In this document: in pieces, positions 10,863 to 60,031 of the stretch | How positions within the stretch are numbered: the first letter of the stretch is position 1 | Layout: every line of letters starts with the position of its first letter | Origin: Solicoccozyma terricola | Lineage: Eukaryota > Basidiomycota > Tremellomycetes > Filobasidiales > Piskurozymaceae | Assembly (NCBI GenBank): GCA_001600875.1 | Contig: BCLD01000004.1 | Span: 28,794-92,793, forward strand | Direction: 5' to 3' | DNA: 64,000 nt | Translations under genes and position numbers: made by a program | Notes under the pieces: model-generated | Told to the model about the DNA's origin: nothing | The model's input: the letters and a program-made list of their open reading frames with translations, nothing else | Database searches by the model: none

Positions 10863-11588
10863 GGCGTGGTGGGAATGAAGCGTGTGTTTTCTTTCCGGGA
10901 GGTGGAGTGTGAATGGTGTGGGTGTGGTGGTCTGGTAGAGCGAAGGTTGCTCTGATAGGGTGGAGACGTGTGCAGGTGTTGACGTCTGGTGGTGGTGGTG
11001 GTGATGTCGTCAGATCAGTCTGTAGGCGGGGGAATGTACGACGCTCCACTCACCGTTTGCAAGGCCATCAGCTGTTAATACGGGTTGGATGTTCGTGGAT
11101 GAGTCAACGCTGAGGCGGGTGTTGTGATGGGTCTGGAGGTTGACTGTTATGTATCAGAGGACACGGCCTCGAATCCGAGACGAGGTAGTGACGAGGGACT
11201 GGCGAGGAATCAGTCTGGTGCGTTCACCTGGTGTGTCCCTTGGGAGGACAATCAATCGTTGCTATCGATACGCGGCTTGGTGGGTGGGACAGAGGCTGGC
11301 GTGCTGCTGGTGGAAGGACGCTGGCGGCTGTGCTGTGCGAGGGGTGTGGACTGTCCTGGGGAGGTGTACACGGACGAGCCTGCCGACCTATTGCTGCCCA
11401 CCAGACTACCACTCGAGATACCCGTTTCCTGTTTCTTTCGTTCAGATCGGGATAGCCATCGAATGGATCGAGCGCGGGGGCAGATCTCAGGGGTCGACGA
11501 TGTCCGTGTCGCGGTGGCGCGGGGTGGCGAATCCACGTGGGCCGGGCACGTGCAGGGGTCGTCCATGTCCGCGGTCTGCTAATACACG
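10863..11588. other. Intergenic region upstream of WC-2 (726 bp)
   Basis: Would hold the WC-2 promoter and the HCNGP 3' UTR. It contains a CACCACC-rich stretch on the minus strand around 10985-11000 and two CACGTG E-boxes near 11534-11551. The long plus-strand frame that crosses it is antisense to HCNGP and shows no family motif. Confidence 0.45.
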
Positions 11589-12951
11589 TCATCTCCGCTT
11601 GTCCGCCCATCTGCCATCCGGCCGTCGTCCACCCCGCTCTCTCTCTCTGTCTCTCTCCCTCTCCCTCTCCCTCTCCCTGTCTCTGTCCCGGTCCCGGTCG
11701 GTGCGCGACGACCCCGTGAAGGCGATGCTGGACCGAAGACCAGCTGTCTGCGATGCAGTCACCGCCGCAGCTGCAGACTTTTGTAATTCCGCTGGCGGGA
11801 GCACACCCAAAAAGCCTGTCAGGCGCGGACCACCCATCCAACGCATCGAATACGCAATTCCCACACCACTCACCAACCGCTGCCTTGCCCCAACTCGGCA
11901 CCCTCTCCTCCAACCCTCTCCGTGTCAGCCACCCTCCACCAGGAAACGACGAGCCTCTTTCGTCGATATCCACGAATTCCACCTGGCCACACGCGGTCTC
12001 AGTCGAGGTTTTCGCCCCCATCGGCCCCTCTTCCTCACTCACCAGTTTCGCATAGATGTGCGGATTTGCAAATGCCGTCGAAGACAGCAACGTCGTGTTG
12101 ATATGCATCCCGCGATCCTGCTTCATCTCGAGGAAACTCGCCACCTTGGCCTGTATGCGAACCAGTCAGCCCCCTGCCTGCCTGCATGGGAGAACACGCC
12201 TCGGTCTGACCGTGATCGCTTCGTCCGGCTGTTCCTCAGTCAACGGCGGTATCCCCCAGTCCACCTTTCCATCAATAGCCCTCGGCATCGTTGCCCGTCT
12301 GAATATCTCATCATCCGTCAACCCATCCGAGCTCGCGTCTCCCTTTCCATTCTCAGGTGGGGTATTCGCAACATTCACAGGTGACCGCGGCGAGGTCCGT
12401 CCTCGATCAGAGTGATTTCCATCAGAGGACAACTTGGACGACGATGCGACAGGTTGTTCGGAGCGGGAACCAGTCGGCGAGGAGAGGTAAGGCCGAGTGT
12501 TCAGGCGGATGCCGACAAGATGCTTCCTGGTTGCTGCTTTGCCCGAGGCAATGGCGATAGCAGGTGATCTCAGTCGCTGATCTGCGAGAGTAGACAAACA
12601 CGTCAAAACGCCTAGCATCTGTCGATTATATCTCACCACCAACCTTCTGAATTCCGTATCGTCATCTCCGCATTCTGTCCCTGGAAATACACCATTCGGG
12701 AGCACGAAGCAGGGGATGCAAGAGGGAGCAGATATATTTCCTTATCATCCAGTGTTCCATCTTTTATATATCCAGTGCCGGCCAAGTGATCTGAAAAGGT
12801 AGACATACATTGGTAGAAGGACCTGCGACCGGTCTAGACGAGACATGTTCATCTTCAGAGTCGTCCGAATACGAAACGAGGCCTGGGACGTTGTTCGCGT
12901 CAGTTGCTATGTAAAGGGGGGCCCTGCAAGACAGTCAAGCTTACCCTGCAT
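11589..12951 (-). CDS. HCNGP/SAP30-binding-protein-like regulator
   Basis: Nuclear protein of the HCNGP (SAP30BP) family, linked in other organisms to transcriptional repression and splicing. A tiny first exon, ATG CAG G at 12951, splices to give MQGLVSYSDDSEDEHVSS, the usual acidic N-terminus. The middle is disordered and Ser/Pro-rich. The family core follows: KVDWGIPPLTEEQPDE, KVAKFLEMKQDRGMHINTTL, FANPHIYAKLV, then VEFVDIDERGSSFPGGGW. The last exon, AELQKSAAAAVTASQ, leads into a basic-acidic tail of alternating Arg-Asp and Arg-Glu and ends at TGA 11589-11591. The tail is encoded by a CT/GA microsatellite whose length may vary among strains. Exon joins in the middle third are approximate. 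Confidence 0.83.
11638..11700. repeat. CT/GA-rich microsatellite coding for an RD/RE repeat
   Basis: Imperfect (ctctcc)n/(ccctct)n tract. Read on the minus strand it encodes alternating Arg-Asp and Arg-Glu near the HCNGP C-terminus, so contractions by multiples of three would be tolerated. Confidence 0.85.
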
Positions 12952-27822: not shown

Positions 27823-28808
27823 ATGTCAGAGGCAATCACAGCAGCATCATCATCCAAGAAGAAGAGGAAGTCGGAGGGTGTGGCAATGGACGTCGATGTG
27901 ACGGTGAGTTCGGAGTGCTGGAGTTGCTCGTGTCAACAATTTTCTCGTGGTTCAATTCCATATACTAATACCGCTGGCGTTCGCCCACCACCCCCCCTCC
28001 CCCCCACCAGACCACCGAAGAGACCCCCAAGAAAAAGTCCAAAAAGGAGAAAAAATCCAAGGATGCAGACGTATCCATGGCTATCTCTGAAGGTGGTGAC
28101 AAGAAGGAGAAAAAGGACAAAAAGGAGAAGAAGGATGATGACAAGGTGAGATTGGGATTCATCAGATCCTCCTGGTTGCGGGACGGCCCCGATCCTAAAC
28201 CCACCCACTACCCTCTACACCTCTCCCCCCGGCTCCCTCAGCCCTCGGCATTCCAAGTCCCCGCAGACGCCATCCTTGCCATTGCATCTCCGCTCGCTCC
28301 ACCCAAACTCTCTCGCCGAATCTTCCGCATCATCAAAAAGACCTCCAAAGCCCGTCAACTCAAACGTGGTGTCAAAGAAGTCATCAAAGCCCTTCGAAAG
28401 GGTGAAAAGGGTCTGCTCATCTTGGCGTCCAACATCACTCCACTAGACGTCATCTCGCATCTCCCCGTCCTCGCTGAAGAGTCCAACGGTGTCGAATACT
28501 GCTGGGTGCCAAGCAAAGAGGAGCTTGGTGCTTCTTCGGGTACCAAACGAGCCACCTCTTGTGTTCTCGTCTGCACGACCCCGAGGAGGCGGCCAACCCC
28601 CAAGGATGGAGCGGTGGCGAAACCGGCTCCGACAGCTGAGGAAATCAAGGACTGGCAGGAGCCATTGTTGGAGTGCATCGAAGAGGTCAAGGCACTGGTG
28701 AGTGAGATTGAGAATTTGGGGGTTTTTGTGTTCGGAACTCGGGAATGACTCGCTAAATCATTATCCATTACTCCCTTTTTTCAGGACGGTCAACGAATCG
28801 CTGTATGA
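27823..28808 (+). CDS. NHP2: H/ACA snoRNP protein Nhp2 (L7Ae family)
   Basis: Core protein of box H/ACA pseudouridylation particles, acting in the nucleolus. Exons: 27823-27903, 28011-28145, 28242-28697 and 28785-28808, all with GTGAG donors and AG acceptors. The N-terminus is Lys-rich (SSKKKRKSEGVAMDVD, KKEKKDKKEKKDDDK), longer than in yeast Nhp2. The L7Ae fold follows: SRRIFRIIKKTSKARQLKRG, VKEVIKALRKGEKGLLILAS, ITPLDVISHLPVLAEE, GTKRATSCVLVC. The final exon is only eight codons, DGQRIAV and TGA. The PolyC-rich 3' part of intron 1 is a pyrimidine tract. Confidence 0.92.
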
Positions 28809-30720: not shown

Positions 30721-32797
30721 CTAGGTGGCTTGTGTGACTGCCTTCTCGGTCACTTTGGTATCCTCCTCCTCTTCCTCCTCCTCCTCCTCCTCCTCCTCCT
30801 CTCTCTTGGTCGACTTGGCAGCCGCTTTGGCCGCACGCTTCGCCTCTCTCGCTGCAGACTTGGCTTTGGCTTCCGCTTCTTGCTTTGCCCTCTCCGCGAG
30901 CTCGTTCTTGACCCACGCAGAAACATTGACAACGGCATCCTCCGGTTTGAACTTGTATTGCATGAGCAAGCCTTGCAAGGACGCGGTAGAGAACTGGCGG
31001 TCAGGAATGCTCTCACTCCAGTCCTTGGCCAACAACTCGAGCTTCTCCATGTCCACCTCGGTCTTCCTGATGTCATTCGCCCCTTTGATAGCCTTTGCAG
31101 CGACAGTTTCAGCGTGATTGCCGTAGAACACCTTGAAAAAGTACTTTGCTTGAGCTTGAGAAGCATTATAGTACTGGACGGAGAGATCCGCACGACCAGG
31201 ACGGATAAGAGCAGGGTCCAACAGCTCGCGATGATTCGTAGTCATAAACACTGGGCGTTAACCGTCAGTGAGGTCTCGTTATTAGGTCTCGTTATCTGGT
31301 CTAAACCCGACCGCCACTCACAGACACGACCTTCTGATCCGGCTATGCCATCGATCGCATTCAGTAGACCGGACAAGGTGACACGACTGCCGGAGCTGTT
31401 GTCGCCGTCACTGTCGCTATCCGCATCCTCGTCTTCATCGCTATCGCTGTCCTCCTTGGGCTTTGCTGGCGACCTTCGGCTCTTGCGTTTGGATTGGAGA
31501 GCGACGTCGATGTCCTCCATCACGACCACCGCTCCGGCAGGGCTGTTAAGATAGGTCAAGAGCCGATCTCAGCTGGAATATATTCGCATGCACTCACACG
31601 AGGGTCATGCATCGGTTGAGCATAGAGTCAGTCATGCCGGCTGTGGTGAGGACGCCGAGGCCGCTAATCAGATATCGATACGAATCTTTTTATCCCCGTT
31701 CCACTCACCCGTAGACAGGGAGAACACATAGACGTCCAACTTCAACTCTGATGCGAGCGCGAGGATGGTGCTGGTCTTACCTGAGCCTGGTAACCCATAT
31801 AGCAGAATCCCTCGACGCCACGGAATACCCCGTTCGACATAAAAGTTCTCGCTGGCCAAAAACTCGCGAATGTCGCCGAGAAGACGCTCCTTGACTGACA
31901 GGTGCAGGTGCGTGGGTCAGTTTAAAAGATCCCCTTTCGCAATACACCTATGCTGAACTCACCGCCATCCTCGGTCACCACACTTTCCAGTCTCCTCGGA
32001 TGCCTCAAAGCGGTCTGACGCCACCCACTGCCTCTATCATCGACCGCTTTGATGGATAATTTTCCTTCATTGGAATCGAGGTACTTGAGTTTGGCGGCGG
32101 CAAGCAACTCGATGAACGTCGACTTGTTCCTTGCAAACATGGTGACTGTGATCGCCTCCTTGAGGTGCGAACCAGTCTTTTGGACTAATGGGCGGTGAAG
32201 CCTGACAAGATGCCCCTTGAACCACAAATAATGGGAGTTATCTGCATCTCTTGGAATGTGAGCGAGAAGCGTGCAACGGCGAAACTCGTCAGAACTCACC
32301 CTTCTGAGGCACATAGTAAGGCTTTGGTTTGGCAAACTTGTCAATAATTGATTCTCCTTCTTCCCTCCTATCAAAGATTAACCATGGGTAGACGCGGGAG
32401 CCTGCGGAACCTTGTGTTGTTTCACATTGGCTGTCAAGACAGGGATGAGCGATCAGACCAGAGTAAGGAGATGGATTGTTCCTCACAAATCTCTTGACGG
32501 TTGTTGCCATGATGGGTGTGAAACCCAGTAGGCCATCAACCAGTCGTACGACTCGTCGGTGGCAAGGTGGACACTATATATTGCTGAATAATATTTGAGC
32601 CAGGCGCTCAGGGCTATTACCAGCCTCCTTGCGGCCTCTCCACAGACACCAAGAAGAAAGAGCTTGACAAAGTCGATGATGCGCGGGTGGGTCAGAAGGT
32701 GGATTAGGAGACCTACGGGGCCGAGGCCAGAGACGAAGAGGGGGATGTCGGAGGTAGAGGATAGGTTGACAGCAGGGGTGTCGGCATTGCTGGACAT
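30721..32797 (-). CDS. BCS1-like mitochondrial AAA ATPase
   Basis: Related to Bcs1, which translocates the Rieske protein across the mitochondrial inner membrane. A single membrane segment lies near residues 30-60 (GLGPVGLLIHLLTHP and FVKLFLLGVCGEAARRLVI). The BCS1-N domain follows (YYVPQK, HYLWFKGHLVRLHRP, EAITVTMFARNKSTFIELL). The AAA module has Walker A GILLYGLPGSGKTSTILALA, Walker B AVVVMEDIDVAL and sensor/arginine region VFMTTNHRELLDPALIRPGR. Between Walker B and sensor there is an acidic insert (DSDSDEDEDADSDSDGDN). The C-terminus adds an Ala/Lys-rich stretch and a poly-Glu run. Both additions are absent from canonical Bcs1 and typical of fungal BCS1-like paralogues, so it may not be the true Bcs1. 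Start 32797 is preferred; 32986 is in frame. Confidence 0.82.
30766..30801. repeat. (CCT)n trinucleotide repeat coding poly-Glu
   Basis: About a dozen cct/ctc triplets; on the minus strand this is a run of 13 or so Glu near the C-terminus of the BCS1-like protein. Confidence 0.9.
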
Positions 32798-36499: not shown

Positions 36500-37021
36500 G
36501 TTGAGTGGGAAGGGGGTGATTGAGAGAGGGGAAGAGAGCAGACTGTGTGTGATGTAGAAAAAACGATTCAACAAGCTCCAAAGGGAAAGGGCATCCGCCA
36601 TATCCTCCCTAGACCACGACCACCACGGGCGGTTTTGTACCCCTCAAACGTGCCCTATCGCGAAGCATGGTTCTCCGACTACCGCTTCAAGGGGGATACT
36701 CTGACGACGATGAAAGGAGGTAGACGATGCTTACCCGGAATTCAGAGGGGTTTAAAGTGACCACTGCCGAAGATCCCGGCGGATATGGCGTGTGGGCAGA
36801 TGAAACCGCGAACCAAAGGACCGGGTGAGGTTTCATCGATATCAGCCGAGATGGAGGGTTTGCCAGCGTCCTCCTAATTCTGCAGTTGAAGCGACGTCCG
36901 AATGGCGTAGTGGCCACCACTTCATGGCACGAGTCGACGGTACCGTATGCATATCGAACAAAAGACCTCCTGGTCTCCCAGTTACAAACCACTCCCCCTT
37001 GCCTTGCCCCTTCCCTTCATC
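36500..37021. other. Intergenic region (522 bp), no gene seen
   Basis: Upstream region of the HAD-hydrolase gene and downstream region of the next minus-strand gene. The in-frame extension of the HAD gene to 36601 cannot be excluded. Confidence 0.4.
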
Positions 37022-37864
37022 TCACCGCCCACCATCCCTCCTCGCATGCTCTTCCACAGCCTCCAACCCAGGCAACACCTCGTTCCCAACCCTCTTCACG
37101 CCATACATCGCCTCCCTGATCCTAACTTCCCTCTCCATCAACCTATTCTCCTCCTCTGGACTCTTCTGTTCACCATGCGTCATCCCTCTAACAGTGAACG
37201 TCCCCGGATTGCTCAAAGTGCCTTGTTGAACGGCGTCGAGACGTTGTCGTGCGGCAGCCGCTTGATGTAATATCGACCCAGGTGAACGCCATGGAATCTT
37301 TGCTCGTGGGTTGGTCACTGAATCGTACGTCTGATCTAATGACTTGTCGGTTGACTTGGAATGCCGTGCGAGAGGGTCGGTTGTTCCTCTTCGATGCGCT
37401 TGCTCTGATGGCTCGAGACCGCCGCCGTGAGTCAATCGGGAATGAGCGACGTATCTAACGAGTTGATCACTATCTCCCAAGTCCAAGTTTTTGGAAACGG
37501 GTACGGTCGTCGTATCCCGGAAAGCAGCTTCGATCGTCTCGTCGAGCGTTGATGGGGTGAGGAATGTACCGGAGAGGTGGTGAAAGTCAACGAGGGTCCG
37601 AAGAGCGGGTGTGGTCAGTTTCCCACCGGGAAGATGAGGAGCGTTCGGTTGTTTGCGTGATGAAGAGGTGGGAGCAGAGGGTGCTGGTCTCCCAGTTGCG
37701 TTGGAAACCTGCTCCTTGGTGTATCGGGAGCGTGGGTAGAGTCCGAGTTGTTCGGGAGAGGGACGGGATGTGGAAGAGCTGGCGAGTGTACGGGTGGAGG
37801 AGGGGATAACACGGGGTGATGCCGAGCTGAGAATGGACCGCATGGTGGAGGACGAGGTGGCCAT
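37022..37864 (-). CDS. Unrecognised protein, probably mitochondrial
   Basis: One open exon of about 280 codons starting MATSSSTMRSILSSASPRVI, a Ser/Arg-rich, acid-free N-terminus like a mitochondrial presequence. The body is hydrophilic: LGLYPRSRYTKEQVSNATGR, PALRTLVDFHHLSGTFLTPS, TLDETIEAAFRDTTTVPVSK, then ENRLMEREVRIREAMYGVKR and GLEAVEEHARRDGGR before TGA. The C-terminal third is predicted helical and charged. The composition and targeting leader would fit a mitochondrial ribosomal or assembly factor, but no family motif was recognised. Frame integrity and conserved-looking segments argue that it is real. An ATG at 37939 adds 25 residues. Confidence 0.62.
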   Translation of the reverse strand: MATSSSTMRSILSSASPRVIPSSTRTLASSSTSRPSPEQLGLYPRSRYTKEQVSNATGRPAPSAPTSSSRKQPNAPHLPGGKLTTPALRTLVDFHHLSGTFLTPSTLDETIEAAFRDTTTVPVSKNLDLGDSDQLVRYVAHSRLTHGGGLEPSEQAHRRGTTDPLARHSKSTDKSLDQTYDSVTNPRAKIPWRSPGSILHQAAAARQRLDAVQQGTLSNPGTFTVRGMTHGEQKSPEEENRLMEREVRIREAMYGVKRVGNEVLPGLEAVEEHARRDGGR

Positions 37865-38239
37865 GATGAAAACTGCTATCCCTGTCAACTTGTATAGGTC
37901 GGTGAACTGGGTACGGACCAAACTCAACATTTCGGGCAAATCACGGACATGAGGTAGTTGAAATCCGCTTTCGCCACCGGAAATGGGTGGTGGACAAGGT
38001 AGGGACTAGGGTCGTGGGTCGTGCGGTCGTACACCTCCCAGGACTCCCTGAAGTCTCGTGAGCGATCTCAATTTTGCTGCAGACTTTTGCCCACGAAGAA
38101 AGGAGCTGAAATCATTTTGCTTCTTATAAAGGCATTCGTCGCATAGTGTGCTATTCGAGGCATGGGGTTCTTACACTATCAGCATCCTCCTTTTGCGCTG
38201 GGATCCTTTCAGAAGTAATGAGCTGATTGCGTCCATCTT
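37865..38239. other. Intergenic region before the tandem array
   Basis: No gene seen. ggggttcttacactatcagcatcc at 38164-38187 weakly resembles the promoter box of the array and might be a decayed further copy. Confidence 0.35.
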
Positions 38240-38367
38240 GGTTCTCACGTATTGCCATCCAGGTGTCAGCACTGAAGGTTCGCATCTCTCCTACTCCTAT
38301 CACTCCCTTTGAGAAGCATCAGATTGGATCTAGCAAAAATGGGTTCTCACATGGTGCTATCCAGGCG
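38240..38367 (+). promoter_or_regulatory. Duplicated 26-bp promoter box, unit 1
   Basis: Boxes at 38240-38265 and 38342-38367, 102 bp apart, share GGTTCTCA-N6-TGCYATCCAGGYG. ccctttgagaagcatc lies between them (38305-38320) and recurs in all three units. Confidence 0.6.
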
Positions 38368-38562
38368 CAGTCCTGGCTATCAGTCCGCCCTCGTTTATAT
38401 TGGTGCAGACTTGGACAAAGGAAGCCTACCTTCCCCATAAAGAAAGGCAACCTTCCTCCAAGGAAACAGAGGCATCCTCTTTAACAACCATTCCACCAAC
38501 ATCTACGCCTACACCCACACCAACGAGATACGTCCAAGTCAAAGTCATAACCCACACGTCAA

Positions 38563-38943
38563 ATGGATGAACCACGAGCAATTGAGCCAAGCGACATCCA
38601 CGTGGATGATGAGAGGTTGTTTAAGCAAGGCTTTTTAAATCAGAAGAAAGTTGATATTGTGAAGAAAAATAAGCTGTACCAGAAGGAAATTGATAATATT
38701 GACCAATCCGGCTTCAAGAGAGATCGTCTGAAGGCCAAAAGAAAAGCTTTATTGTATTACTACTATTTACTTTCAAAAAACCAACTCAGCGACAACGCCC
38801 CCAACGATGAGATTGGAACAAACCCATCAACCGATGATCCGACGGGACACCAGTCACCGGCCGACAATGCTAGCAGCGGCATGTCCGGCGGAGGCGGCGC
38901 ACGTACGACGCTCAATCCAACCACCGAGTCAAACACCTACTGA
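38563..38943 (+). CDS. Cassette ORF 1, unknown lineage-specific protein
   Basis: Intronless frame of 126 codons. N-terminal half is charged and helical with a Lys-rich segment (KKVDIVKKNKLYQKEIDN and DRLKAKRKALLYYYYLL); the C-terminal half is disordered, Asn/Ser/Gly-rich (NASSGMSGGGGARTT). No signal peptide, membrane helix or known motif. AT-richer than neighbouring genes and without introns, unlike almost every other gene here. Its flanks match those of the two downstream cassette ORFs although the proteins show no visible similarity. No translated leader match to the shared CAATCCTTCAGCAATCATG start context of ORFs 2 and 3. Coding status is plausible but unproven. Confidence 0.5.
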   Translation: MDEPRAIEPSDIHVDDERLFKQGFLNQKKVDIVKKNKLYQKEIDNIDQSGFKRDRLKAKRKALLYYYYLLSKNQLSDNAPNDEIGTNPSTDDPTGHQSPADNASSGMSGGGGARTTLNPTTESNTY

Positions 38944-39473
38944 GGTACCGGGCACAGCGTGTGTCAGAAATTGGACGCAAGCAGAAGCCCTGGCCGCGTA
39001 TATTCTAGTAAAGCAGAGAAAGGGTCAACTGTACTCTCGTAGGTAAAAACCAAATAAACCCACATATGCGTTCGAATTATATTCAATATACCTGCTCTAG
39101 TAATATGATGCAAGGTTCTGAGCTGGCGTGCACACGCTTTGAGTGGTCTACGCTAGTAGGTCGCACGTCATGATGATAGGTTGAAGGATGGATTCATGTG
39201 GAATGCGTTGGTCCCTGTCCCGACCGGAGCGATAGTAGATGTATTTACTGTGCATTCTCCCCCTCCACATTCCCCTCAATTCCCCGACCCATCGTGAGAA
39301 CAGCCTCACGTTGCACCCAATGCCCCACAACGGCGCCCATCCGCCCGGTGGCAAATTCCTCCCGCCACCGCCACCGCCACCGCCAGCTACGCGACTGTTA
39401 TTTGCAATCACTCGTTATCTCTGCTTCGCTCCGCCGGTGCCTTTGAGATGCATCAAGTGGCAGCTGTCAAACT

Positions 39474-39604
39474 GGTTCTCATACTATGCCATCCAGGTGT
39501 TGGCACTGAAGGTTCACATCTTTCTCCTACTCCAAGTACTCCCTTTGAGAAGCATCACCATTGAATCCCAGCAGAATGGGTTCTCACACGGTGCCATCCA
39601 GGCG
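39474..39604 (+). promoter_or_regulatory. Duplicated 26-bp promoter box, unit 2
   Basis: Boxes at 39474-39499 and 39579-39604 match those of unit 1 with nearly the same spacing (105 bp). A TATA-like tatatatac follows at 39713-39721, about 90 bp before the ATG. Confidence 0.6.
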
Positions 39605-39806
39605 CAAGTCGTGAGCACGCACTACCAGGGTTCTCGCTATGCTGTCCCTCCTTACAACGCAGTTGGAACATATTGCAGCTTCCTTGAGTGGCGAATTTGG
39701 CTTTTCCAGCCGTATATATACAAGGGGGGAATTCCGCAGAAAGGGTAACAGAGGGATATAAGCAATACCACCGAAGACATTCCACAATCACAATCCTTCA
39801 GCAATC

Positions 39807-40256
39807 ATGACCAGCGGCCGAGTTATAAGACTAGTAAACAACAACGTCCACCAAGAGCAAACCGAATGGAGGAACAAAGACACTAATGAGGTGTGGATGA
39901 TATTCAATAATAGTTCACCACCGGATTCATCATCGGTACCGCATCACGGAAAACTGGACGTGGCACCAACGGAGGATTCCAAGCCAGGGATTTATCAAAC
40001 AACCGACCACCGCGGGTACTGGCAAGTATTTGCGGCAAGCGAATGTATCTTCGTGAGGCGGGTGGGAGAAGAAGTTTCCATCCGGGATGAGGAGAATGAC
40101 ATCGTTTCGAACAGCGGAATCCCGACCATCGGGGCCCAAGAAAATGAGCAGTCCCAAGAGTCCGCCAGCATCGCTGGTACAGGGTCAAAGTCATGGTCAG
40201 AGTCAGCCATTACCAATCTCACTAACGAAGACTCCAATGCTGGGTCTGAGAATTAG
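39807..40256 (+). CDS. Cassette ORF 2, unknown lineage-specific protein
   Basis: Intronless frame of 149 codons starting MTSGRVIRLVNNNVHQEQTE in the context agcaatcATG, the same leader as ORF 3. The middle contains GIYQTTDHRGYWQVFAASEC and IFVRRVGEEVSIRDEENDI, a beta-rich pattern; the tail is acidic and Ser-rich (SESAITNLTNEDSNAGSEN). No signal peptide or membrane segment. A TATA-like box and a leader conserved with the next unit support transcription. No family recognised, and no visible similarity to ORFs 1 or 3. Confidence 0.58.
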   Translation: MTSGRVIRLVNNNVHQEQTEWRNKDTNEVWMIFNNSSPPDSSSVPHHGKLDVAPTEDSKPGIYQTTDHRGYWQVFAASECIFVRRVGEEVSIRDEENDIVSNSGIPTIGAQENEQSQESASIAGTGSKSWSESAITNLTNEDSNAGSEN

Positions 40257-40792
40257 GCACCACTCACGACAAACAAGGGGGGATATTCAGAAGTAAAGAA
40301 GTAGGCGTTATATCTTAGTGAGCGGAGGACATACAGTCCTCCCATAGGTTAAAAGAAAAAGAAATAGAAAACCCATATGCATTCGAATTAGATCATAAAA
40401 ATACCTGCTCTAGTAACATGATGCAAAGTGCCAAAGTCACCGATTCACGAGTGATGGGCTCACGTTATTGATTCACCAGGAATGCTCTGTCCCTGCTCGT
40501 TGTGTCTTTCCTGTGGCAGATTTGCCGGGCCACCGAGGAGACCGGGTGGTGAATTCTACCCATCGAACTACCGCCGCCACCGCCCGCTACAATTCACAAA
40601 GGATGTGAGTGTTATTTGCAATCACTCCTTATCTCTACTTATCTCCGCTACTCCATCCTTGCCCCCTTCCCCTTTCTGGTCCCTTTGAGAAGCAGTAGAT
40701 TTGCCCCCAGTAAAGCACGGTTTGAATATTCAAACAAGGTGCCATCAAAGGAAGCGAAAGGTGTTCACTATCTTGTGTCTCCGTAGCGTAAA

Positions 40793-40848
40793 CCCCTAAC
40801 CACTAACCACTAACCCCTAACCCCTAGCCCCTAGCCCCTAACCCCTAA
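40793..40848 (-). repeat. Interstitial telomere-like repeat, eight heptamers (TTAGGGG type)
   Basis: Eight consecutive heptamers on the plus strand: CCCCTAA, CCACTAA, CCACTAA, CCCCTAA, CCCCTAG, CCCCTAG, CCCCTAA, CCCCTAA. The complement is the TTAGGGG class used at fungal telomeres, including Cryptococcus relatives. Two variant forms show it is no longer maintained by telomerase. Confidence 0.85.
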
Positions 40849-41011
40849 CCCGGGTAGCACCCCTTTGATGTCGCTCGTTGAAACGGAAATACAGTACTCT
40901 TACCTTGAGCGGCAAATTGCCCTTTTGAGTCGTATAAAAGACAAGGAAGGGCGGGCGAGGGGGGAGGGAAGATCCGAATACATTCCAAATTCTCGCAATC
41001 CTTCAGCAATC

Positions 41012-41578
41012 ATGTCAATTCCAAGCACCAACACAAGAAAGCCTCAAGAGGAGGACCGTCCTGATGGTCCAAATGACGAAACCTCATCTCTCCCCGAAAG
41101 GCCATTGATGACTAGTGGGTTCGATACATTATCCTTCAAGTACAATGGGCCAGAGAGCGTCGACCCATTGGTGTATGGTATCGTTGGCGTGTTGACAGGC
41201 ACCGGCGTTTGCAAACCAGACAATTCGGGAGGTTTCATTATTCCCGCTGCCGATCAGAATAAGCACGTTTTCTTCGAAGTAGACACTGGTAGTCATATGA
41301 GGACTCGGACTACCTTTGATGGCAAAGCGAGTAGGCTTCTCTTCGTTTACAATGTCATCGCGGAGTTAAGAGAGGCAGGCCTAGGCCCGGAGTCATGGGC
41401 AAGCGTGAAGACTGTCGGCGCACAAACGATTCATGAGGACACCGGCGAGCAATTAATAGTGGAAATTGTACGAACACAAGATGACTACACAGAGGTCTCC
41501 ACAAAGATCTTCCAAAAGGACCAGGTCCTAAATCCGACTACCTTGGACAAGAACAATCTCAGCACTCGGGAAGGGTAA
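41012..41578 (+). CDS. Cassette ORF 3, unknown lineage-specific protein
   Basis: Intronless frame of 188 codons beginning MSIPSTNTRKPQEEDRPDGP in the context agcaatcATG. A disordered N-terminus precedes a folded-looking region: SVDPLVYGIVGVLTGTGVCK, GGFIIPAADQNKHVFFEVDT, RLLFVYNVIAELREAGLG, WASVKTVGAQTIHEDTGEQL and IVEIVRTQDDYTEVSTKIF. This reads as an alternating alpha/beta domain, but no family was recognised. A TATA-like gtataaaag at 40932-40940 lies 72-80 bp upstream. Of the three cassette ORFs this looks most like a stable folded protein. An in-frame ATG at 40865 would start upstream of the TATA-like box and is less likely. Confidence 0.62.
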   Translation: MSIPSTNTRKPQEEDRPDGPNDETSSLPERPLMTSGFDTLSFKYNGPESVDPLVYGIVGVLTGTGVCKPDNSGGFIIPAADQNKHVFFEVDTGSHMRTRTTFDGKASRLLFVYNVIAELREAGLGPESWASVKTVGAQTIHEDTGEQLIVEIVRTQDDYTEVSTKIFQKDQVLNPTTLDKNNLSTREG

Positions 41579-42063
41579 TCCAGTCTTTGGCAATAATCCT
41601 CTCTCCTCTTCCTCTTCCTCTTCCTCGGATCTTTCTTCAATCTGTTGTACCATTATACGATGCGTAGACTTCCTAAACAAATCTCTCCTTTCCTCTCCTC
41701 GCAAGTTTGTCAAGTTCCACCAACCACACTGAAGACTCCCATGACAATGATCGATAGCGTGAGGATACAGCGCACCAAGTCATCTGGCATATTAGAGTAA
41801 TGAATGAGATCCCCAATGTCTCTGGAATGTATCTTGGTAGAATCGAGTAGAGGATGTAAAAGTTGCTCGTGTTGTACTATCAACAATGGTTAAACCCCTG
41901 TATGTTCGATATCGATGCGTGCTCTAGTAACAACCTTCAGGGCGAGCTATTGCATCCAGGGGAGCTAGTGATTGTCATGATGATGTGATAGGCCGAAATG
42001 CAGGCGCACTGCATAACCCCCTCCCTCCCCTCCTTCCCCCCCCTCCTCCCCGGGGGGCGACAC

Positions 42064-43470
42064 TCAACCAAAGTTCCCCCACTCCAGACTCCAACACTCG
42101 ACGCTCCCCTTCCCCACCGCCCCATCCGTCCTCGGTTTCTCCACATCATCAGTCTCCTCATCGAAACAGCATATCAAATGGGCCTTTTTCGTCGCAGTAC
42201 CCAAACGACCCCATGCTACCAATTCCATCGGTCGTATGACGGTGTCTGGTGATGGTAAGGTGTTGTTCACGAAATGTGAGTGGTATCGGAGGGGATCACC
42301 TGTGGGTGTAGGTTGTCAGGGAATCGAATCCACGCGTGATGCAGCGTGTGTCTCCGCGTAAGCCAGCCAGCCAGCTAGCTAGCCAACCAGCCAACCTGCC
42401 AGCCAGCAAAACACCCTTCCACTCACCAGGATAAATCAAGAATTCGCCACCAAATTTAACACCATGACCGAGATAAAACCCTTCTTCCCAAACTTTTCTA
42501 AAACTAGCGCATCTCGCTCTTTCTATCAATGTACGAGGGTAATTCCATACATTCGCCTCTCGCGCTGTTTGTAAATCGTGATACAAGGAACCTGTTGTTT
42601 CCGGTGAGAACCATGGGTGGTGAATGGGTGTCGCTGGGACCTCGGTGAAGTAAGCGAGACCTTCGGATGGATTTGAAGAAGGTCCAGCAACTGGTACGTC
42701 GTCTTTTATCGGAGAACTAATTCGCTGTGACCCACTTGCTACTGCCACCTCTGCAGTTTCAGGAGTGAATAAAGATGGTAATTCCCCCGTTGCATCGACC
42801 GCACCCGTACCCGTACCCGCAGCCGCAACCCCACTCTCCTTCCCTTTCCCATTCATCCTCGCCAATTCCTTCATCCGTCTTCTCTCTTCTCTCTTCTTCA
42901 TCACCTCTGCCGAATCCGTGATCTTATTCGCAAACACTTTTTGACGTTCTGCTTGTTGTGCTGCTACATCTTCCTGTAATGCTCGAATGGTTACCAATCG
43001 AGAGGTTTCATGTGCTTTTATCTGTGCGGCGGTGGGAGGGATTATTGATGACGGCGAGTGGATGAGGTGACAGATGTCTGAAAGAAGATTGATTGATTGT
43101 AGTTTAGGTCAGATTACCCATTGAAAACCGTCGAAGGGGAGGGGGGGGGAAAGGGGTCAACGAACGGTTCTCGACCAACAACACGACTTCCTCCGGCATC
43201 AACAGCTGCGGTAATCCAAGAAATGCATTCTGTTGAGCTACACCGGGTAGAGTTCCAGCCATGAGACCGCATATCCGATGACGAACGCGGAGATTTGCGA
43301 CATCTAGTCAGGGGGTTTAAAACATGGAGCATGGTTTATACGTCAGGTTGAGAGCTCGAGCGAATGGGACCGATGTGGGCTTCCTCACCTTGTGCGTCCC
43401 AGCAGTACGCTTTGCCGTTGGAGAGATAGAGCGGGATGGTGCTTGGTCCTGGCTGTGGTGTGTGTGCCAT
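42064..43470 (-). CDS. SEN34: tRNA-splicing endonuclease catalytic subunit Sen34
   Basis: Cleaves pre-tRNA at the 3' splice site in the Sen complex. N-terminus: STIPLYLSNGKAYCWDAQ, then LRVRHRICGLMAGTLPGVAQ, NAFLGLPQLLMPEEVVLL. A coiled, Ala/Gly-rich linker follows (AQQAERQKVFANKITDSAEV). The catalytic domain reads FRKVWEEGFYLGHGVKFGGE, FLIYPG joined to DPLRYHSHFVNNTLPSPD, then VIRPMELVAWGRLGTATKKA and CWSLEWGNFG at the C-terminus. The Tyr (GFYLG), His (YHSHF) and Lys (TKKAH) of the RNase A-like triad are present. The intron between FLIYPG and DPLRYH holds a (CCAG)n repeat. Stop TGA 42064-42066. Confidence 0.9.
42360..42407. repeat. (CCAG)n imperfect microsatellite in Sen34 intron
   Basis: Ten or so ccag/ctag/ccaa/ctgc tetramers on the plus strand within the intron of SEN34. 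Confidence 0.88.
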
Positions 43471-43646
43471 TGCGGTGTGGAGCTGGTGGACTGCTGTTAC
43501 GGTCTACGGTGTTGAACTGGTTGGTGGTGGTTGGTGGTAATTATTGTCGATGCACGTGACTCACTCTCTCTCACTCAACTCTCTCTCTCAACTTCTCCAA
43601 CCATGGTCAACGGCAACAGCAACAGCAACACACCCGTCCCCCCGTC

Positions 43647-52660: not shown

Positions 52661-55600
52661 ATGAAGCCTTCCACCACATACCCACGTCTGACCGAATCAG
52701 TACACCATCCGATCCTACCAGGCATAGTAAGTCGCCCCGCACTGAACGCCGAAAACACGTGACTTCTAACACTATTCGCCTCTGTCTCCATAGACCAACA
52801 AACGTCTCGACCTGTTCACAGGAGGGCACTATGCCTCGCAGAATCTCTCTTCGGCTCTGGATAGAGCTCGGCTGGACTCGTCTGACTATGTATCCATGTC
52901 CCTTTGGTCAGCACCGGGTCTTACAAAGCCCTCGTTCGATGAAGCCAAATCGCGTTTGCTGCAGGATGAGGAGGGCAAGAAGTTCCACAAGGACGACTGG
53001 CTAGGTCCGAGTTGGACAAATCATTGGCTACGCGTCAAGATCAATATTCCAGCAAGTTGGAAGGATGTGGATGAGGAGGTCGTCTTCGAGTTTGATCCGT
53101 CTTGTGAAGCGCTGATCTTTACGCCGGAAGGAGATCCAATTCATGGTCAGTAACCGCGAAAGCGGTAGCTAGAGTCCGCGCTGAAGTTACCCCCCTTTAC
53201 CAGCAATTACGGGAGGACCACACTCCTCCAAAGACGGAGTACCAGGTGATCAAGAAGATCGTCGCATCGAACACATCGTTCCCAGGTCCGCAGTGATCGC
53301 AGGCTCCTACGAGTGCTACATCGAAGTGTCCTGCAACGCCATGTTTGGCATCGGGTTGAATGGCTTCAGACATCAGCAGCCCGATGTAAGTAGACGTCAG
53401 CGAGATGTCAGCAGTTCTCTTCATCTTGGTATCCTTGACTGAGGCTCGGATGCCCCCAGATGCATATGCGGTATCAACTCAAAATCGCCGACCTCGTCCT
53501 GGTGAATTCCGAAGCCATCGCCCTCCAAATCGACTTCCAGATCCTTTCACAGATCGCTCGAGCATCAGATAGAGAGTCTTCCAACATCTCACAACGAGCT
53601 CTCATTGCCACGAATGATATCATGAACACGTTCCGCAGACGAGACGAGGACATTAGCGATCCGGCAATCTTGGACGATGTGATTGTTCGATGCCGAGAAA
53701 TCTCACAGAGCGTTCTGGGACCACTGGACAAGGGCGCGCAGAAGAAACTGTGTACGCATGACGCTGGTTGCTTTCCAGAGGCGAAGATTTGGGCGATCGG
53801 ACATTGGTGAGAGCAGTCATTTGGCTGTCATGGCGCCTATGACCAACTGACCTATGACCAACTGACCAACATATCGCACAGCCATATAGACACCGCATGG
53901 CTTTGGAATTACTCCGTAGCACAGCAGAAGATAGCTCGTAGCTGGTCGAGTCAGATAGACCTCATGGAATCGACCTATCGAACGAACCCCTTTCCAAATC
54001 ACCATTTCGCTGCGTCGAGCGCGCAACAATACGCTTGGCTCGAGGAGTTATATCCTTCCCTGTTCAAACGCGTCTCACAAAAGGTCGAGGAGGGACACTT
54101 CCATCCCGTCGGAGGAGCTTGGGTCGAACATGACTGCGTGCTGCCCAGCGGGGAATCTCTGTGTAGACAATATCTTTATGGACAGCGATACTTTCAGGAA
54201 AAGTTCGGTGTGCGGAGTCGGGAAGCTTGGCTGCCGGATACTTTTGGGTATGCTTCGCAATTGCCACAGATCTTGCGACTCGCGGGGATAGATTACTTTT
54301 TCACTCAAAAGGTATGTACAAGATGAGATGGAAAAAGGAAAGTTGGGTATCGTTTCGAGGCCTCGTTCGTCACAGCTCTCATGGAACAACATCAATATTT
54401 TCCCTCACTCGACATTCAACTGGTGTGGACTTGATGGATCGCAAGTGCTCGCTCATATGACACCTGTGGACACATACAACGCAGGTGCAAACTAGTGAGT
54501 GAGACAGAGTCTCGGCGCTAGGTATCCACTGATCAGGAGCACCTCCGCCTCAGCGAAGAACTCCTCAAGGGCGCTCGGAAGAACAAAAACCTCGGCGTGA
54601 CCGACGAGTGTCTGCTACTCTTTGGAAACGGGGACGGTGGCGGAGGTCCCACGCCGTTGATGTTGAACAAGGTACGGGGGCGGGGGAGGCATCGGCGACA
54701 AACATCAGTACTGACGTTGGGAGTCACACAGCTCCAACGTTTGAGCTCAGTAGCCATGCAAGATCCACAAGTACCTTCGGTTAAGATTGGCAAAGTTGTT
54801 GACTTTTTCGATCACCTCTGCAAGAAGACGGAGGGCGGGAAGACATTGCCAGTGTGGCGCGGCGAGCTGTACTTTGAGTTGCATCGAGGCGTAAGTAGTA
54901 GTAGCTACATGCTGATGTGTATGGCCCGCTGATACCTCATGAGCAGACATATACCAGCCAGGCCGATCTCAAGAAAGGTAACAGGACTATGGAGAAGCTC
55001 CTCCGAGACCTCGAGTACTTTGCAACGATGGCAAGCATCTTGGTGGATGGTTTCCGATACCCCAAGTGAGTGTTGGACGGTAAAAGGCTATCGAACCCTT
55101 CCTAGAATCCCAAAATCTTCGCAGAGACGAGCTCGATGAGATATGGAAGGATACACTACTAGGACAGTTCCACGATGTTCTCCCGGGAACTAGTATCCGT
55201 GAGTGGGAGTCGGTCCTCCTAAAAAGGCGAAGAGACGAATCTAACTCGTGAACCGCACAGGAATGGCAATCGATGACCAATTGGATATCTATAAAAGACG
55301 GAGCGCACAAGCAGAACAACTCATCGAGGACACGCTGCAGCAGCTCCTTCCGGTGTCAGCTGTGGCAAACGGACATTCGACCGACGGACGTTCTCTCTTT
55401 GCGATCGACCCAATCCGTTTAGAACGAACGCAGGTGGTCGAGATCAGCTCTACTGTGGCTGCCAATCTATCGCTTCCAGGCGCACAGATCACATCACAAG
55501 GCACCGTTCTCGCTCTCGTTGGCACTGAATCAGATGGGACTGGCGGTGTGATCCCGGTGCCCGTATCGATGCAAAGCCCCAGAGCATACACGTCTGGTTC

Positions 55601-57165
55601 CGATTTCATTCTCGAGAACGCCCATTTCAAACTCGTCATTTCTAACGGCCGGATCACCAGCCTGATTGACCTCCTCCTCAATCGCGAGCTCATCATGGCC
55701 GGTCGATCAGCCCGCGATGCTGGTCTCATGCTGTATGATGATCTCCCTCTCGCGTATGACGCATGGGACACAGAGATCTACCATCTTGATTGTTGCGAGG
55801 TTCTAGAGTTTGAGGAGGTCGCAGTGAAGGAGAATGGACCGTTGAGGGCGTCTTTGCTTGCCACTGCGAGGTTTGGAAAGAGTATTGCGAGCATCACGGT
55901 GAGTCAGGGATGATCGATGAATAGCCCAGCCCGTTGACCAGTGTTGCGTCCTGTTCTGCTACCCTTCCAGCTTTCACTCGACGCAGTGTTACTCGACTCG
56001 CCAATATCGTCCCGAACTTGGATCCGGGTGGATGGCTTTGTGGATTGGCATGAGAAACACAAGTTTTTGAAATGTCAGTCTCGCATTATGACCGCTTGTC
56101 TTCCCTACCTGCTTCCTCTGACTCAGTGCAACCCCCAAACTCACCGTCTCACCCTCTTGCCCCCACTAGTCGCCCTCCCTGTCGACATCCACTCTCCCAA
56201 CGCCACCTACGGAACCCAATTCGGTCTTATCGAACGACCGACGCACCGAAATACCACACTGGACCAGGCGAAATTCGAAGTTTGCGCGCATAGGTTTGGT
56301 GATTTGAGTGAGACGGGGTATGGTGTGAGTTATTGAGATGCTGACATTTATGGAGAATGCTTAACGTTGATGGGAGGCAATCGATGTTACAGTTGGCGAT
56401 TGTAGCAGATACCAAGTATGGTTACGCAGTTGAAGGGAATGTAATGCGGTGAGGGTAATCTCCTGCACCATCCCTCAAAATCTCTTCGCTGAAAGCTTTC
56501 AATTCGTTGCAGGCTATCTCTACTCCGCTCAGCAACTGCCCCTGATCCGAATCAAGACCAAGGCCAACACTCGTTCTCATTCGCTATCATGCCTCATCCA
56601 GGTCGTCTCGTCGAGAGTGAAGTGCCAGTGAATGCCGCGAAGTTCACGAATGATTTGTATTGTGAGTCGTGCGGTGGGGTTTTCGTGTGTCAAGCCATGT
56701 ACTGATGGAGATGTATGACTCAGTGCGGACTGTGGTCTCCAACGCAAAGACGTTGATGGAAAGCATGGACTTGAGAATCATTGGCTCGAATAGTAGTGGC
56801 ATCATCATCGACACTATCAAGCGTGGGGAGAACGATGAACAAGATGGGCCGAAGACGATTATCGTCCGGATGTATGAGAGCTTAGGCGGACGAACCAGGG
56901 GTTTCTTAGAGCTGTGAGTGAGGAATATCTGTGGGACATTCAGCAGAATTACTGACGCTGAAGTGGTGGCTGGCGTGATATTCACGTCAACAGCTCGGGA
57001 GTCCGAGTGGTCGCGGTGCACTCGGTGAACATCCTTGAAGAGGTGATGGAGGATGAGCCGGAGGTGGACTGGGAGGTGACACTGAATTGGAGTACTCGGA
57101 TCGAACTTGACCTGCGTAGCTTCGAGGTGCGGACACTGCGTGTCGAGGTCATGCCACCTGCGTAG
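52661..57165 (+). CDS. Alpha-mannosidase, GH38 (vacuolar/cytosolic Ams1 type)
   Basis: Trims free oligomannosides; in yeast it reaches the vacuole by the Cvt/autophagy route, consistent with no signal peptide here. Start [20 protein letters not shown], intron, then [20 protein letters not shown]. The active-site region is [20 protein letters not shown] (second His and Asp metal ligands), with the nucleophile in [19 protein letters not shown]. Further exons: [38 protein letters not shown] with a conserved His-Asp, [21 protein letters not shown]..-type beta domains, [40 protein letters not shown], and the last exon [12 protein letters not shown] with TAG. About 15 introns. Length near 1,100 residues fits Ams1. 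Confidence 0.9.
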
Positions 57166-57458: not shown

Positions 57459-60031
57459 ATGTCTGGAACAGGCGGTCTCAAGGCCATCGCGCCCGTCCCA
57501 ACCGCGGACGAGTTCATCGACCGTATCCTCTCCGGAACTCAGAGGAAGACTCCCACCGTCATCCACAAGAATTTCAAGATCTCTCGTATCAGAAATTGTG
57601 AGTATCTGTTTAATGTCGAGGGTCGTGTGACACTGTCGAGGGGCAATTTTTCGCTGAATATTCTCATATCTCTCACTCCGATAAAGTCTACATGCGAAAG
57701 GTCAAATTCGCTCAAGATTCGTTTGATGAAAAGCTTGGTGCCATCCTCACAGAGTTCCCTATCCTAGACGTGAGTGCACAGCCGTCGATTCTTCCATTCC
57801 AGCAGAGTCCCAGAAAACTCATCACCTCCCTCTGCTCCACACTAGAACCTCCATCCTTTCCTTTCCTCCCTTCTCAACGTTCTCTACGACAAAAACCACT
57901 ACAAGCTCGCTCTTGGTCAACTCAACACCGCACGTCATCTCATCGATTCCATCGCCAAGGACTATGTCAGGTTGTTGAAGTTTGGTGATTCGTTGTACAG
58001 GTGTAAGCAGTTGAAGAAGGCTGCACTTGGTCGGTGAGTGCATTATGTGTCAATTTTCCGCCATGGCGGGACTCCCACACCGAACTGATCGAGCCATATT
58101 TCCCCTTTAGAATGGCGACCATCATGCGTCGTCAGAAAGACCCCCTTGCCTACCTCGAGCAGGTCAGGCAACATATCTCTCGTCTCCCAGCCATCGATCC
58201 CAACACCCGGACGTTGTTGATCTGCGGTTACCCCAACGTTGGGAAGAGTAGTTTCATCAACAAGATCACTCGAGCGGATGTCGATGTTCAGCCTGTGAGT
58301 GATAGATCGAGTTTTAAAGCCTGTTGAGATGACCGGCTGGATCTCAAGTACTGATGATACGCTGTAAATCCTCCAGTACGCCTTCACGACGAAATCCTTG
58401 TTCGTCGGTCACATGGATTACAAGTACCTCCGTTGGCAAGTGATTGATACCCCTGGAGTCCTCGACCACCCTCTTGAGGAGATGAACACGATCGAGATGC
58501 AGTCGATTACCGCTCTCGCCCATTTGCGTTCCGCCGTTCTTTACTTTATGGATCTCTCCGAGCAATGTGGTTACACTGTCGAAGCTCAATGCAAGCTCTT
58601 CCATTCGATCAAACCCTTGTTCGCGAACAAGCCTACTATGCTCGTCATCAACAAGATCGACGTGTGTAGGTTGGAAGAACTCTCCGCGGAGAACCGTGCG
58701 TTCGTCGATGAGATCATCAACAGTGAGGACGTCATAGTCGTTCAGGCTTCATGCTACACTGAAGAAGGAGTGATGGCCGTTCGTGACGCTTCATGCGATG
58801 CTCTCCTCGCTCATCGAGTCGAGCAGAAACTTCGTGGTAACCGTCTCGAAGCGGTGGCTAACAAGATCCACGTCGCTGTACCTCAACAACGTGACACTGT
58901 CGAGCGTCCGGCTTTCATCCCAGATGCCGCAAAGACCAAGAAGAAGTACGACAAGAACGATCCGGAGAGGGTCAAGTTGGAGAGGGATCTCGAGCAGGAG
59001 ATGAGTCACGGAGCGGGAATTTTCTCCGCCGATACCAGGAGTGAGTCGTCGTTTGTGTGGCCGATCAAAGTGAGCGTACAAGTCCGCTAATCACATCTTC
59101 CCTTAACCTTTGCAGAACCTTGGCTACTCGAAGATCCATCGTGGAAGTACGATATCATCCCGGAGATCATGGACGGCAAGAATGTTGCCGATTTCATCGA
59201 TCCGGATATCGCAGAGCGATTGGATGCTCTCGAGCGAGAGGAAGAGCGTTTGGAGGCGGAAGGTTTCTACGCGAGCGACGACGAGGATATCGTGAGTTGG
59301 TCGTCTGCCTGGTGGCCTTGCGGATTGACTTGTTGTTGTTGTTCTTTTTTGTTAATTGTACCCTCCTCTACCACCTTCCACCCTTCACAGCTCGATTCGG
59401 AAGAAGAAGAGATCCGCGATGCAGCTCAGCAAATCGCAGCTAAGAAGGCCAAGATCAAGAAGATCTCCCAGGACAAGAACACGCTTAAAAACCGACCTAT
59501 CATTCCTCGCAAAAACCAACATCAATCCCTCAAGGATTTCACCACTGGTATGCGCTCGATTGGTTTGGACCCCAAGACGATCGAGAAGCGAGCCAAGAAG
59601 ATGGTGGAGAAGCGGAGGCAGGAGTACGAGGAGGCGGAGGCCAAGCACGATGCGGAGGCTGCAGAGGGTGGTGCAGATGGCATGGACTTGGATATGGATG
59701 GTTCGGTGGATGTCAAGGGCAAAGGAAAAGCCGGAGCTGTCATCGACCGTCGTCTACCAAGGACCAATAGGCAGTTGGCTGGTATGGCTACTCAGGGTGT
59801 GAGTGTTGCGGTGGTTTTCGTTTCCTGGTTTTTTTTTTTACACCCCCCGGTACTTACTCCCCGCACCCCGCACCACAGCAATCCGAGAAAGCGCGCGAAC
59901 TGCAGATGTTCGCATTCCGAGAGCCCAACAGGTTGGCCAAGGCGTCCGAGTCCGATCGTCATATTCCAATCATGAAGCCAAAGTGGATGTTGGCTGGAAA
60001 GAGAAAGGGTGGAAAGACTCAGCGCAGGTAG
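57459..60031 (+). CDS. NOG1: Nucleolar GTP-binding protein Nog1
   Basis: Essential GTPase of 60S subunit maturation. N-terminal exon [20 protein letters not shown] and [58 protein letters not shown] and [20 protein letters not shown] form the helical N-domain. G domain: G1 [21 protein letters not shown]3 [21 protein letters not shown]4 [21 protein letters not shown]-terminal NOG1/NOGCT parts: [60 protein letters not shown], and terminal [18 protein letters not shown] with TAG 60029-60031. About eight exons. All GTPase motifs intact. Confidence 0.95.

Follow-up and report, generated by a model that had tools for sequence, protein, structure and literature searches.

The window, a 64,000-nucleotide stretch of the Solicoccozyma terricola genome, contains a tandem array of three consecutive uninterrupted ORFs of 126, 149 and 188 codons, in which neighbouring units share flanking sequence and the coding sequences are no more alike than chance. 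The ORFs are located at 38563..38943 (ORF1, a candidate gene), 39807..40256 (ORF2) and 41012..41578 (ORF3, also a candidate), on the + strand like the other parts of the array given below. On either side of the array lie an ORF at 37022-37930 and a tRNA-endonuclease-like gene at 42.3-43.1 kb. All three were found as listed in a first-pass annotation of this DNA; ORF3 has a further in-frame ATG upstream at 40868, from which it would have 236 codons. Our preferred reading, held with moderate confidence, is that these are three small fungal genes of a one-locus family, in which the units were duplicated in tandem, the coding parts were driven apart by selection and the products have an intracellular role. 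The first-pass annotation also took the lack of introns as a sign of unusual origin. The ORFs are indeed uninterrupted, but because they are so short this is weak evidence for such an origin.

Local alignment scores of flanks and coding sequences were compared with two controls: 200 dinucleotide shuffles, from which z-scores were computed, and real sequence, in the form of 1000 segment pairs of matched length taken from the window outside the array. The upstream regions of units 1 and 2 (up1/up2, z 25.1) and of units 2 and 3 (up2/up3, 22.0), as well as the downstream regions of units 1 and 2 (dn1/dn2, 16.1), gave scores that were reached by 0/1000 of the length-matched real pairs. The remaining flank comparisons were weak: the score of dn1/dn3 (z 4.1) was reached by 18/1000 real pairs, that of dn2/dn3 (2.8) by 105/1000 and that of up1/up3 (1.9) by 107/1000. 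All CDS pairs were at chance level, with z-scores of 0.2, 0.1 and -1.8 for 1/2, 1/3 and 2/3 and scores reached by 417, 647 and 931 of the 1000 real pairs, respectively. None of 1465 real pairs of 600 bp reached the up1/up2, up2/up3 or dn1/dn2 scores; these pairs are too long for the shorter comparisons, a matter of length that the matched set of 1000 addresses. Three of the six flank pairs are thus far above both controls. Chance likeness of low-complexity flanks could explain the three weak pairs, which taken alone are near chance, but not the other three, whose scores occur in neither set of real pairs, nor the leader and spacer elements, which were not found elsewhere in the genome; we regard it as scarcely credible. 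Pairwise alignment of the units had been proposed in the first-pass annotation, with flanks no more similar than chance as the outcome that would speak against its description of shared flanks around dissimilar ORFs. That description stands for up1/up2, up2/up3, dn1/dn2 and all CDS pairs, but the shared blocks are not in all three units. A C-terminal LNPTT in ORF1 and ORF3 was considered as a sign of homology and rejected (9/1000 shuffles of the last 20 residues, in one of nine protein tests).

BLASTN HSPs between units were confined to the flanks, except for the ATG that ends the proximal HSP of units 2 and 3. The unit 1 distal promoter block (38205..38375) matches the unit 2 distal promoter block (39440..39613) with 78.5% identity over 177 columns (E 7e-32); box search and module alignment show that the bipartite module (CCTTTGAGAAGCATCA-like ... 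TTCTCACnnnnTGCCATCCAGG) occurs twice in each, while in unit 3 module alignment found a single, degenerate module (40678..40760). The proximal promoter and leader of unit 2, ATG included (39637..39809, with the element TATATATA at 39713-39720), matches that of unit 3 (40863..41014, ATG included, with TATAAA at 40933-40938) with 64% identity over 176 columns (E 7e-9), and this HSP stops at the ATG. The promoter blocks described in the first-pass annotation as shared are therefore shared in part, the distal block by units 1 and 2 and the proximal block by units 2 and 3, with up1/up3 weak. ORFs 2 and 3 both carry the 19-mer CAATCCTTCAGCAATCATG exactly, and a genome search allowing up to 2 mismatches gave no further site. 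Likewise, GTTATTTGCAATCACTC has 2 genome occurrences at up to 1 mismatch, both inside the array, in the spacer blocks of unit 2 (39344..39434) and unit 3 (40542..40648), which form an HSP with E 5e-11. On the 3' side, the blocks of unit 1 (39028..39116) and unit 2 (40333..40429) match with 75% identity over 97 columns (E 8e-14) and contain the box CTGCTCTAGTAA at 39092-39103 and 40405-40416. In unit 3 the box search found GTGCTCTAGTAA (41919..41930), in a region whose wider similarity to the other units is weak. At up to 1 mismatch, CTGCTCTAGTAA has 3 occurrences in the window, one 3' of each ORF, and 0/100 shuffles gave 3.

The sharing is chain-like: unit 2 resembles unit 1 on one side and unit 3 on the other, and units 1 and 3 have little directly in common (the short 3' box and one stretch of 37 bp with E = 0.002). 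Among paralogs, flanks are more similar than coding parts for 1/2 and 2/3; the direct similarity of 1/3 is weak. Identities within the flanks are clustered no more than at random (p 0.42, 0.31 and 0.56), and therefore we do not claim the flanks as islands of constraint. Gene conversion between adjacent units would give such chain-like sharing of different blocks. It is improbable, although not negligibly so, that conversion has homogenised the flanks, or that these are simply dense in functional elements, and that the coding parts have drifted in the ordinary way under weak constraint, with no diversifying selection; against this, the same contrast appears along a single gene when ORF2 is compared with its relative from another genome, with divergence going up at the start codon.

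This relative, the metagenome protein P0001 (E 2.5e-41, from a contig of 1444 bases), was the single one found for ORF2; searches with ORF1 and ORF3 gave none, and a profile of ORF2 and P0001 matched neither of them. ORF2 can be divided into a diverging N-terminal part (residues 1-88) and a conserved acidic, Ser-rich tail (89-149), with a boundary that was chosen by eye after the alignment was seen; the C-terminal end is common to both proteins. Identical codons or residues number 48/55 in the leader, 49/88 (56%) in the N-part and 51/55 aligned in the tail. The comparison covers one ORF and one relative known from its protein sequence alone, so that nucleotide differences are minimum counts: 9/165 in the leader, 50/264 in the N-part and 4/165 in the tail, an excess in the N-part with Fisher p = 4e-5 against the leader and 6e-8 against the tail. 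These counts suggest a higher rate of change in the N-part than in the leader and tail of the same gene, and ORF2 at least is thus a conserved reading frame. With the same single protein as reference, they favour a dN/dS above 1 in the N-part. The leader frame contains a stop in the S. terricola genome (X in the alignment), and its conservation is for that reason not protein constraint there. As core promoter, however, the leader may evolve more slowly than neutral sequence, and an N-part faster than the leader is therefore not proof of positive selection. Trp, Tyr and Phe residues of the N-part are kept at 7/8 positions against 49/88 overall (p 0.059), which is suggestive only. Of the two explanations offered in the first-pass annotation, fast divergence under diversifying selection has partial support: P0001 favours fast divergence for ORF2, and no relative was found for ORF1 or ORF3.

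The other explanation was that different ORFs had been swapped into a standing expression cassette. Unrelated ORFs or ORF parts would be recombined into fixed expression sites with the flanks as homology arms, and the dissimilar CDS, the edge exactly at the ATG of units 2 and 3, and the near-identical leader and tail of P0001 around a different N-part are consistent with this; recombination of old allele classes would likewise yield the last. Yet ORF2 and P0001 can be aligned over the whole N-part, where differences are scattered along the domain with no block replacement, and the two N-parts look like the same domain. Nor is the 3' edge sharp at the stop: similarity of units 1 and 2 resumes about 24-26 bases past it in a loose alignment and 77-85 bases past it in the BLASTN HSP. 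At the array, six pairs of inverted repeats with lengths of 14-26 nt were found (chance expectation not given). Two weak pairs surround ORF3, one of 26 nt at 77% and the other of 14 nt at 86%, and a third, of 16 nt at 81%, encloses the array as a whole, which counts for swapping; these bracketing pairs are short, imperfect and partly low-complexity, and none of the six surrounds ORF1 or ORF2 alone. No donor ORF was found elsewhere in the genome. Clear positive evidence for swapping is thus absent, and we consider it unlikely as the origin of the array. No second copy of the array units was found in the 23.9-Mb genome, and a query with the whole array, made for dispersed copies of the kind left by a mobile cassette or transposon, had no match elsewhere within the limits of the search. 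An Rfam scan of 36500-43600 gave no match over the gathering score.

Promoter and 3' elements may instead have been duplicated around ORF1 and/or ORF3 as de novo or chance frames, with only ORF2 an old gene. Synonymous codon preference gave no coding support in any ORF (-0.013, -0.011 and -0.026), and the lengths of ORF1 and ORF2 are moderately likely by chance, being reached in 24/500 and 12/500 shuffles; the lack of recovered relatives for ORF1 and ORF3 points the same way. By contrast, the codon-frequency score is best of six in the proper frame for all three ORFs, which is partly a by-product of lacking stops, each ORF is followed by a 3' box, and the length of ORF3 was reached in 0/500 shuffles (the longest ORF in shuffled unit 3 had 183 codons, whereas the real one has 188 or 236). 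Length and codon-frequency score are the two indications that ORF3 is coding. We judge this origin rather improbable as an account of the array; swapping, or the birth of ORFs beside copied promoters, may still apply, most of all to ORF1 and ORF3.

None of the three ORFs had a Pfam family over cut-off. A match of ORF1 to PF04558 (E 0.11, 12.9 bits against a cut-off of 28.6) was taken as chance, the best match of ORF3 to PDB sequences had E 0.19, and no occurrence of the three ORFs in viral contigs was confirmed. Structure prediction, also proposed in the first-pass annotation, was run for ORF2 and ORF3, but the mean AlphaFold pLDDT (42.1 from 2 sequences and 47.6 from a single sequence, respectively) was too low for use in comparison; Foldseek with this ORF3 model gave 0 matches at E <= 0.001. 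No membrane segment was detected by hydropathy (maximum 19-residue Kyte-Doolittle means of -0.19, 0.84 and 1.34 for ORF1-3), nor a signal peptide such as secreted effectors or toxins carry (N-terminal 12-residue peaks of -0.43, 0.06 and -1.27). From these hydropathy results we infer that the proteins act inside the cell.

In the duplication and selection that we favour, a promoter-ORF-3' unit would have been duplicated in tandem to give three small genes at a single locus. Common promoter elements would keep them under joint control, and selection for novelty in the N-part would drive the coding parts apart until the paralogs became unalignable. Judging from hydropathy, the products would act in the cell in recognition or conflict, with allorecognition, spore-killer-type drive and suppression, and defence against an intracellular parasite as candidate roles. 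The coding parts with duplicated flanks are perhaps intracellular recognition or conflict proteins, and the array is a candidate for a fungal locus engaged in an intracellular arms race. A more specific proposal, which we advance as doubtful, is an undescribed recognition or drive locus of standing co-regulated units with quickly renewed coding parts and the conserved tail as an adaptor. If true, fast renewal would make neighbouring genes, and alleles of close relatives, unrecognisable. The descent of orphan genes is usually untraceable; here homologous flanks reveal, from each unit to the next, a shared ancestry of proteins that do not align, and P0001 appears to show one array protein in mid-divergence. 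At this one locus, how fast and why proteins diverge would then be open to direct measurement.

Spore killers of the wtf type have transmembrane segments, whereas ORF1-3 are without them by simple hydropathy. As described for fission yeasts, the wtf family resembles the array in being fungal and fast diverging, the closest S. pombe/S. octosporus pair having 16% amino acid identity against an orthologue average of 65.3% (PMC9562144). It differs in copy number, with dozens of copies in S. octosporus (48 intact candidates) against a single locus with three ORFs here. The gene wtf4 is multi-exon, with poison and antidote on separate transcripts; the array ORFs are uninterrupted, and ORF2 and P0001 end alike, but further exons or second transcripts may exist. 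The FLEX cis-element of wtf intron 1 is reported in 42% of S. octosporus candidates and in 0/31 intact S. osmophilus candidates (PMC9562144). In snake venom toxin families, accounts of accelerated exon evolution and ASSET describe coding parts that change faster than UTRs and introns, or segments that are switched, with introns over 85% similar (PMC2711939). The array is alike in that coding parts appear to change faster than flanking noncoding sequence; venom toxins, as described there, have a signal peptide, introns and a shared disulfide-bridged fold. The array paralogs, unlike venom toxins, are unalignable and without a signal peptide by hydropathy. Among the open-licence papers listed, judged by title and the start of the abstract, no such array was found in a basidiomycete or tremellomycete.

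Fungal allorecognition and mating-type genes combine a variable N-terminal and a conserved C-terminal part within one gene, and their products are intracellular. ORF2, with its variable N-part, conserved tail and probable intracellular action, is similar, but ORF1-3 lack a Pfam family over cut-off. Linkage to mating type was considered and rejected: a STE3 receptor on the same contig is ~535 kb away, and among ORF1-3 no homeodomain or STE3 match over the Pfam cut-off and no CAAX end was found. In the genome, STE3 matches lie at 606-607 kb of C4 and on C10, and the only homeobox (PF05920) match lies on C1. The C-terminal residues of ORF1-3 are TY, EN and EG, respectively.

The array comprises three consecutive promoter-ORF-3' units (units 1-3), whose small ORFs were located on the + strand with the lengths predicted in the first-pass annotation: ORF1 (start 38563, 126 codons), ORF2 (start 39807, 149 codons) and ORF3 (start 41012, 188 codons), with start-to-start distances of 1244 and 1205. 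The anticipated common 3' box, CTGCTCTAGTAA, was found behind each ORF (starts 39092, 40405 and 41919), its first base being G in unit 3. The identical 19-mer reported at ORFs 2 and 3 was recovered and ends in the ATG in both; these ORFs are also preceded by TATA-like elements, identified by reading the sequence. ORF1 and ORF2 are each preceded by two copies of a bipartite upstream module, a CCTTTGAGAAGCATCA-like element followed by TTCTCACnnnnTGCCATCCAGG, and ORF3 by a single degenerate copy. The promoter region of unit 3 also contains a degenerate telomere-like repeat, (TAACCCC)n, at 40791-40855. Exact matches to CCCCTAACCCCTAACCCCTAA number 8 in the genome; with two of the pairs overlapping, they amount to 6 sites, on contigs C2, C4 and C20, and are possibly interstitial telomere repeats.

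Flanks and coding regions were aligned between units and compared with 200 shuffles per pair and with real segments of the window, taken as 1000 pairs of matched length per comparison. Similarity well beyond chance was found for the upstream flanks of units 1/2 and 2/3 (z 25.1 and 22.0) and the downstream flanks of units 1/2 (z 16.1), with 0/1000 real-segment pairs reaching the observed score in each case. Values for the other pairs were lower: downstream 1/3, z 4.1 (18/1000); downstream 2/3, z 2.8 (105/1000); upstream 1/3, z 1.9 (107/1000). As originally claimed, the coding parts are mutually dissimilar: ORF1/2, 1/3 and 2/3 gave z of 0.2, 0.1 and -1.8, with 417, 647 and 931 of 1000 real-segment pairs reaching the observed score, and for the full-length proteins 943, 559 and 177 of 1000 protein shuffles did so. 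BLASTN (E <= 0.05) returned seven HSPs, two self-matches set aside, all of them flank matches reaching no further than the ATG. The principal HSPs join -358 to -188 and +85 to +173 of unit 1 with -367 to -194 and +77 to +173 of unit 2, and -170 to the ATG of unit 2 with -149 to the ATG of unit 3, ending exactly at the start codon. Similarity passes chain-like along the units, 1 with 2 and 2 with 3. The proposal that conserved flanks surround all units holds for neighbours, but units 1 and 3 directly share only 37 bp (E 0.002).

The in-frame codon-frequency score was the highest of six frames in all three ORFs; synonymous codon preference gave no support for coding in any of them. ORFs of at least the observed length arose in 24/500 shuffles for ORF1, 12/500 for ORF2 and 0/500 for ORF3, the last counted for a 236-codon version (longest shuffled ORF 183). 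The coding status of ORF2 is independently supported by P0001, a metagenome protein of 206 aa (E 2.5e-41) that aligns across the whole ORF and has the same C-terminal end. No relatives of ORF1 or ORF3 were found at E <= 10 in this search, which requires shared five-residue words in a database of uncalibrated fungal coverage.

Codon identity to P0001 is 48/55 in the frame upstream of the ORF2 ATG (leader), 49/88 in residues 1-88 and 51/55 in the tail, residues 89-149, of which 6 of 61 lie opposite gaps. At least 9/165, 50/264 and 4/165 nucleotide sites differ, respectively (Fisher, N-terminal part versus leader 4e-5, versus tail 6e-8); the 88/89 boundary was picked by eye from this alignment. 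Sliding windows reproduce this stepwise contrast, the lowest window being 11/15 in the leader, a smaller dip, and 6/15 in the N-terminal part. The leader is not protein in this genome, because its frame holds a stop. Differences in the N-terminal part are scattered, and Trp, Tyr and Phe are mostly retained (7/8, p 0.059). This part looks like a diverging domain flanked by slower stretches. Of the suggestion of fast coding divergence under diversifying selection, the rate contrast in ORF2 stands; it does not prove positive selection, since a protein comparison hides silent changes and constraint may also act on the leader.

Such a pattern has precedents. Venom genes combine slow non-coding with fast coding parts (PMC2711939), and the wtf genes are a fungal example of extreme divergence, with one cis-element retained in part of the family (PMC9562144). 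Neighbouring units of the array follow this general pattern. ORF1-ORF3 have no membrane segments, a wtf trait, and no hydrophobic N-terminus, the defining feature of secreted effectors, by simple hydropathy. The wtf genes also have a two-transcript structure, which the three ORFs may or may not share. The three proteins are hydrophilic (GRAVY -1.08, -0.84 and -0.53; pI 6.1, 4.6 and 4.7), and from these properties our best inference is an intracellular role in recognition or conflict. Prediction on ORF2 and ORF3, with only one or two input sequences, gave no usable structure model.

Dispersed mobile cassettes would have copies elsewhere, but in the 23.9 Mb genome (33 contigs; window at C4:28794-92793) the whole-array query matched only itself and two short telomere-like stretches on C20. 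Allowing up to 2 mismatches for the 19-mer and up to 1 for the 17-mer spacer, neither was found outside the array. When up to 3 mismatches were allowed, 27 sites in the genome matched the promoter box, against 7 for a reversed-pattern control; the four with 0-1 mismatch all lie in the array and the remaining 23 are weaker. The three proteins matched only themselves, save one weak ORF2 match on C10 (36%, E 0.02), which was treated as chance. We favour duplication of a promoter-ORF-3' unit, after which the coding part would have hyperdiverged. Weak, short and imperfect inverted-repeat pairs, which may be terminal repeats or chance matches, bracket ORF3 (40944-40969 with 42022-42047; 40964-40977 with 41625-41638) and the whole array (38153-38168 with 42208-42223).

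Defining features of fungal mating-type genes were looked for in the array and not found. The array and a STE3 pheromone receptor (C4:606416-607415, -) are both on C4, some 535 kb apart, and a second, weaker STE3 match is at C10:869434-869619 (+). The genome is taken to be that of a fungus, probably a basidiomycete. Directly upstream of the array, on the opposite strand, is a 302-codon ORF with no Pfam family (37022-37930, -). Adjoining the array is a tRNA intron endonuclease match (42299-43108, -; PF01974, E 1.8e-4, 22 bits, below the 27-bit cut-off), presumably a SEN34-like gene. Ordinary conserved genes in the window include HCNGP-like (11227-12165, -), L7Ae family (27969-28745, +), BCS1-like AAA (30724-31257, -), GH38 mannosidase (53811-55910, +) and NOG1 GTPase (58368-59972, +), the last two with Pfam matches split over separate open stretches.
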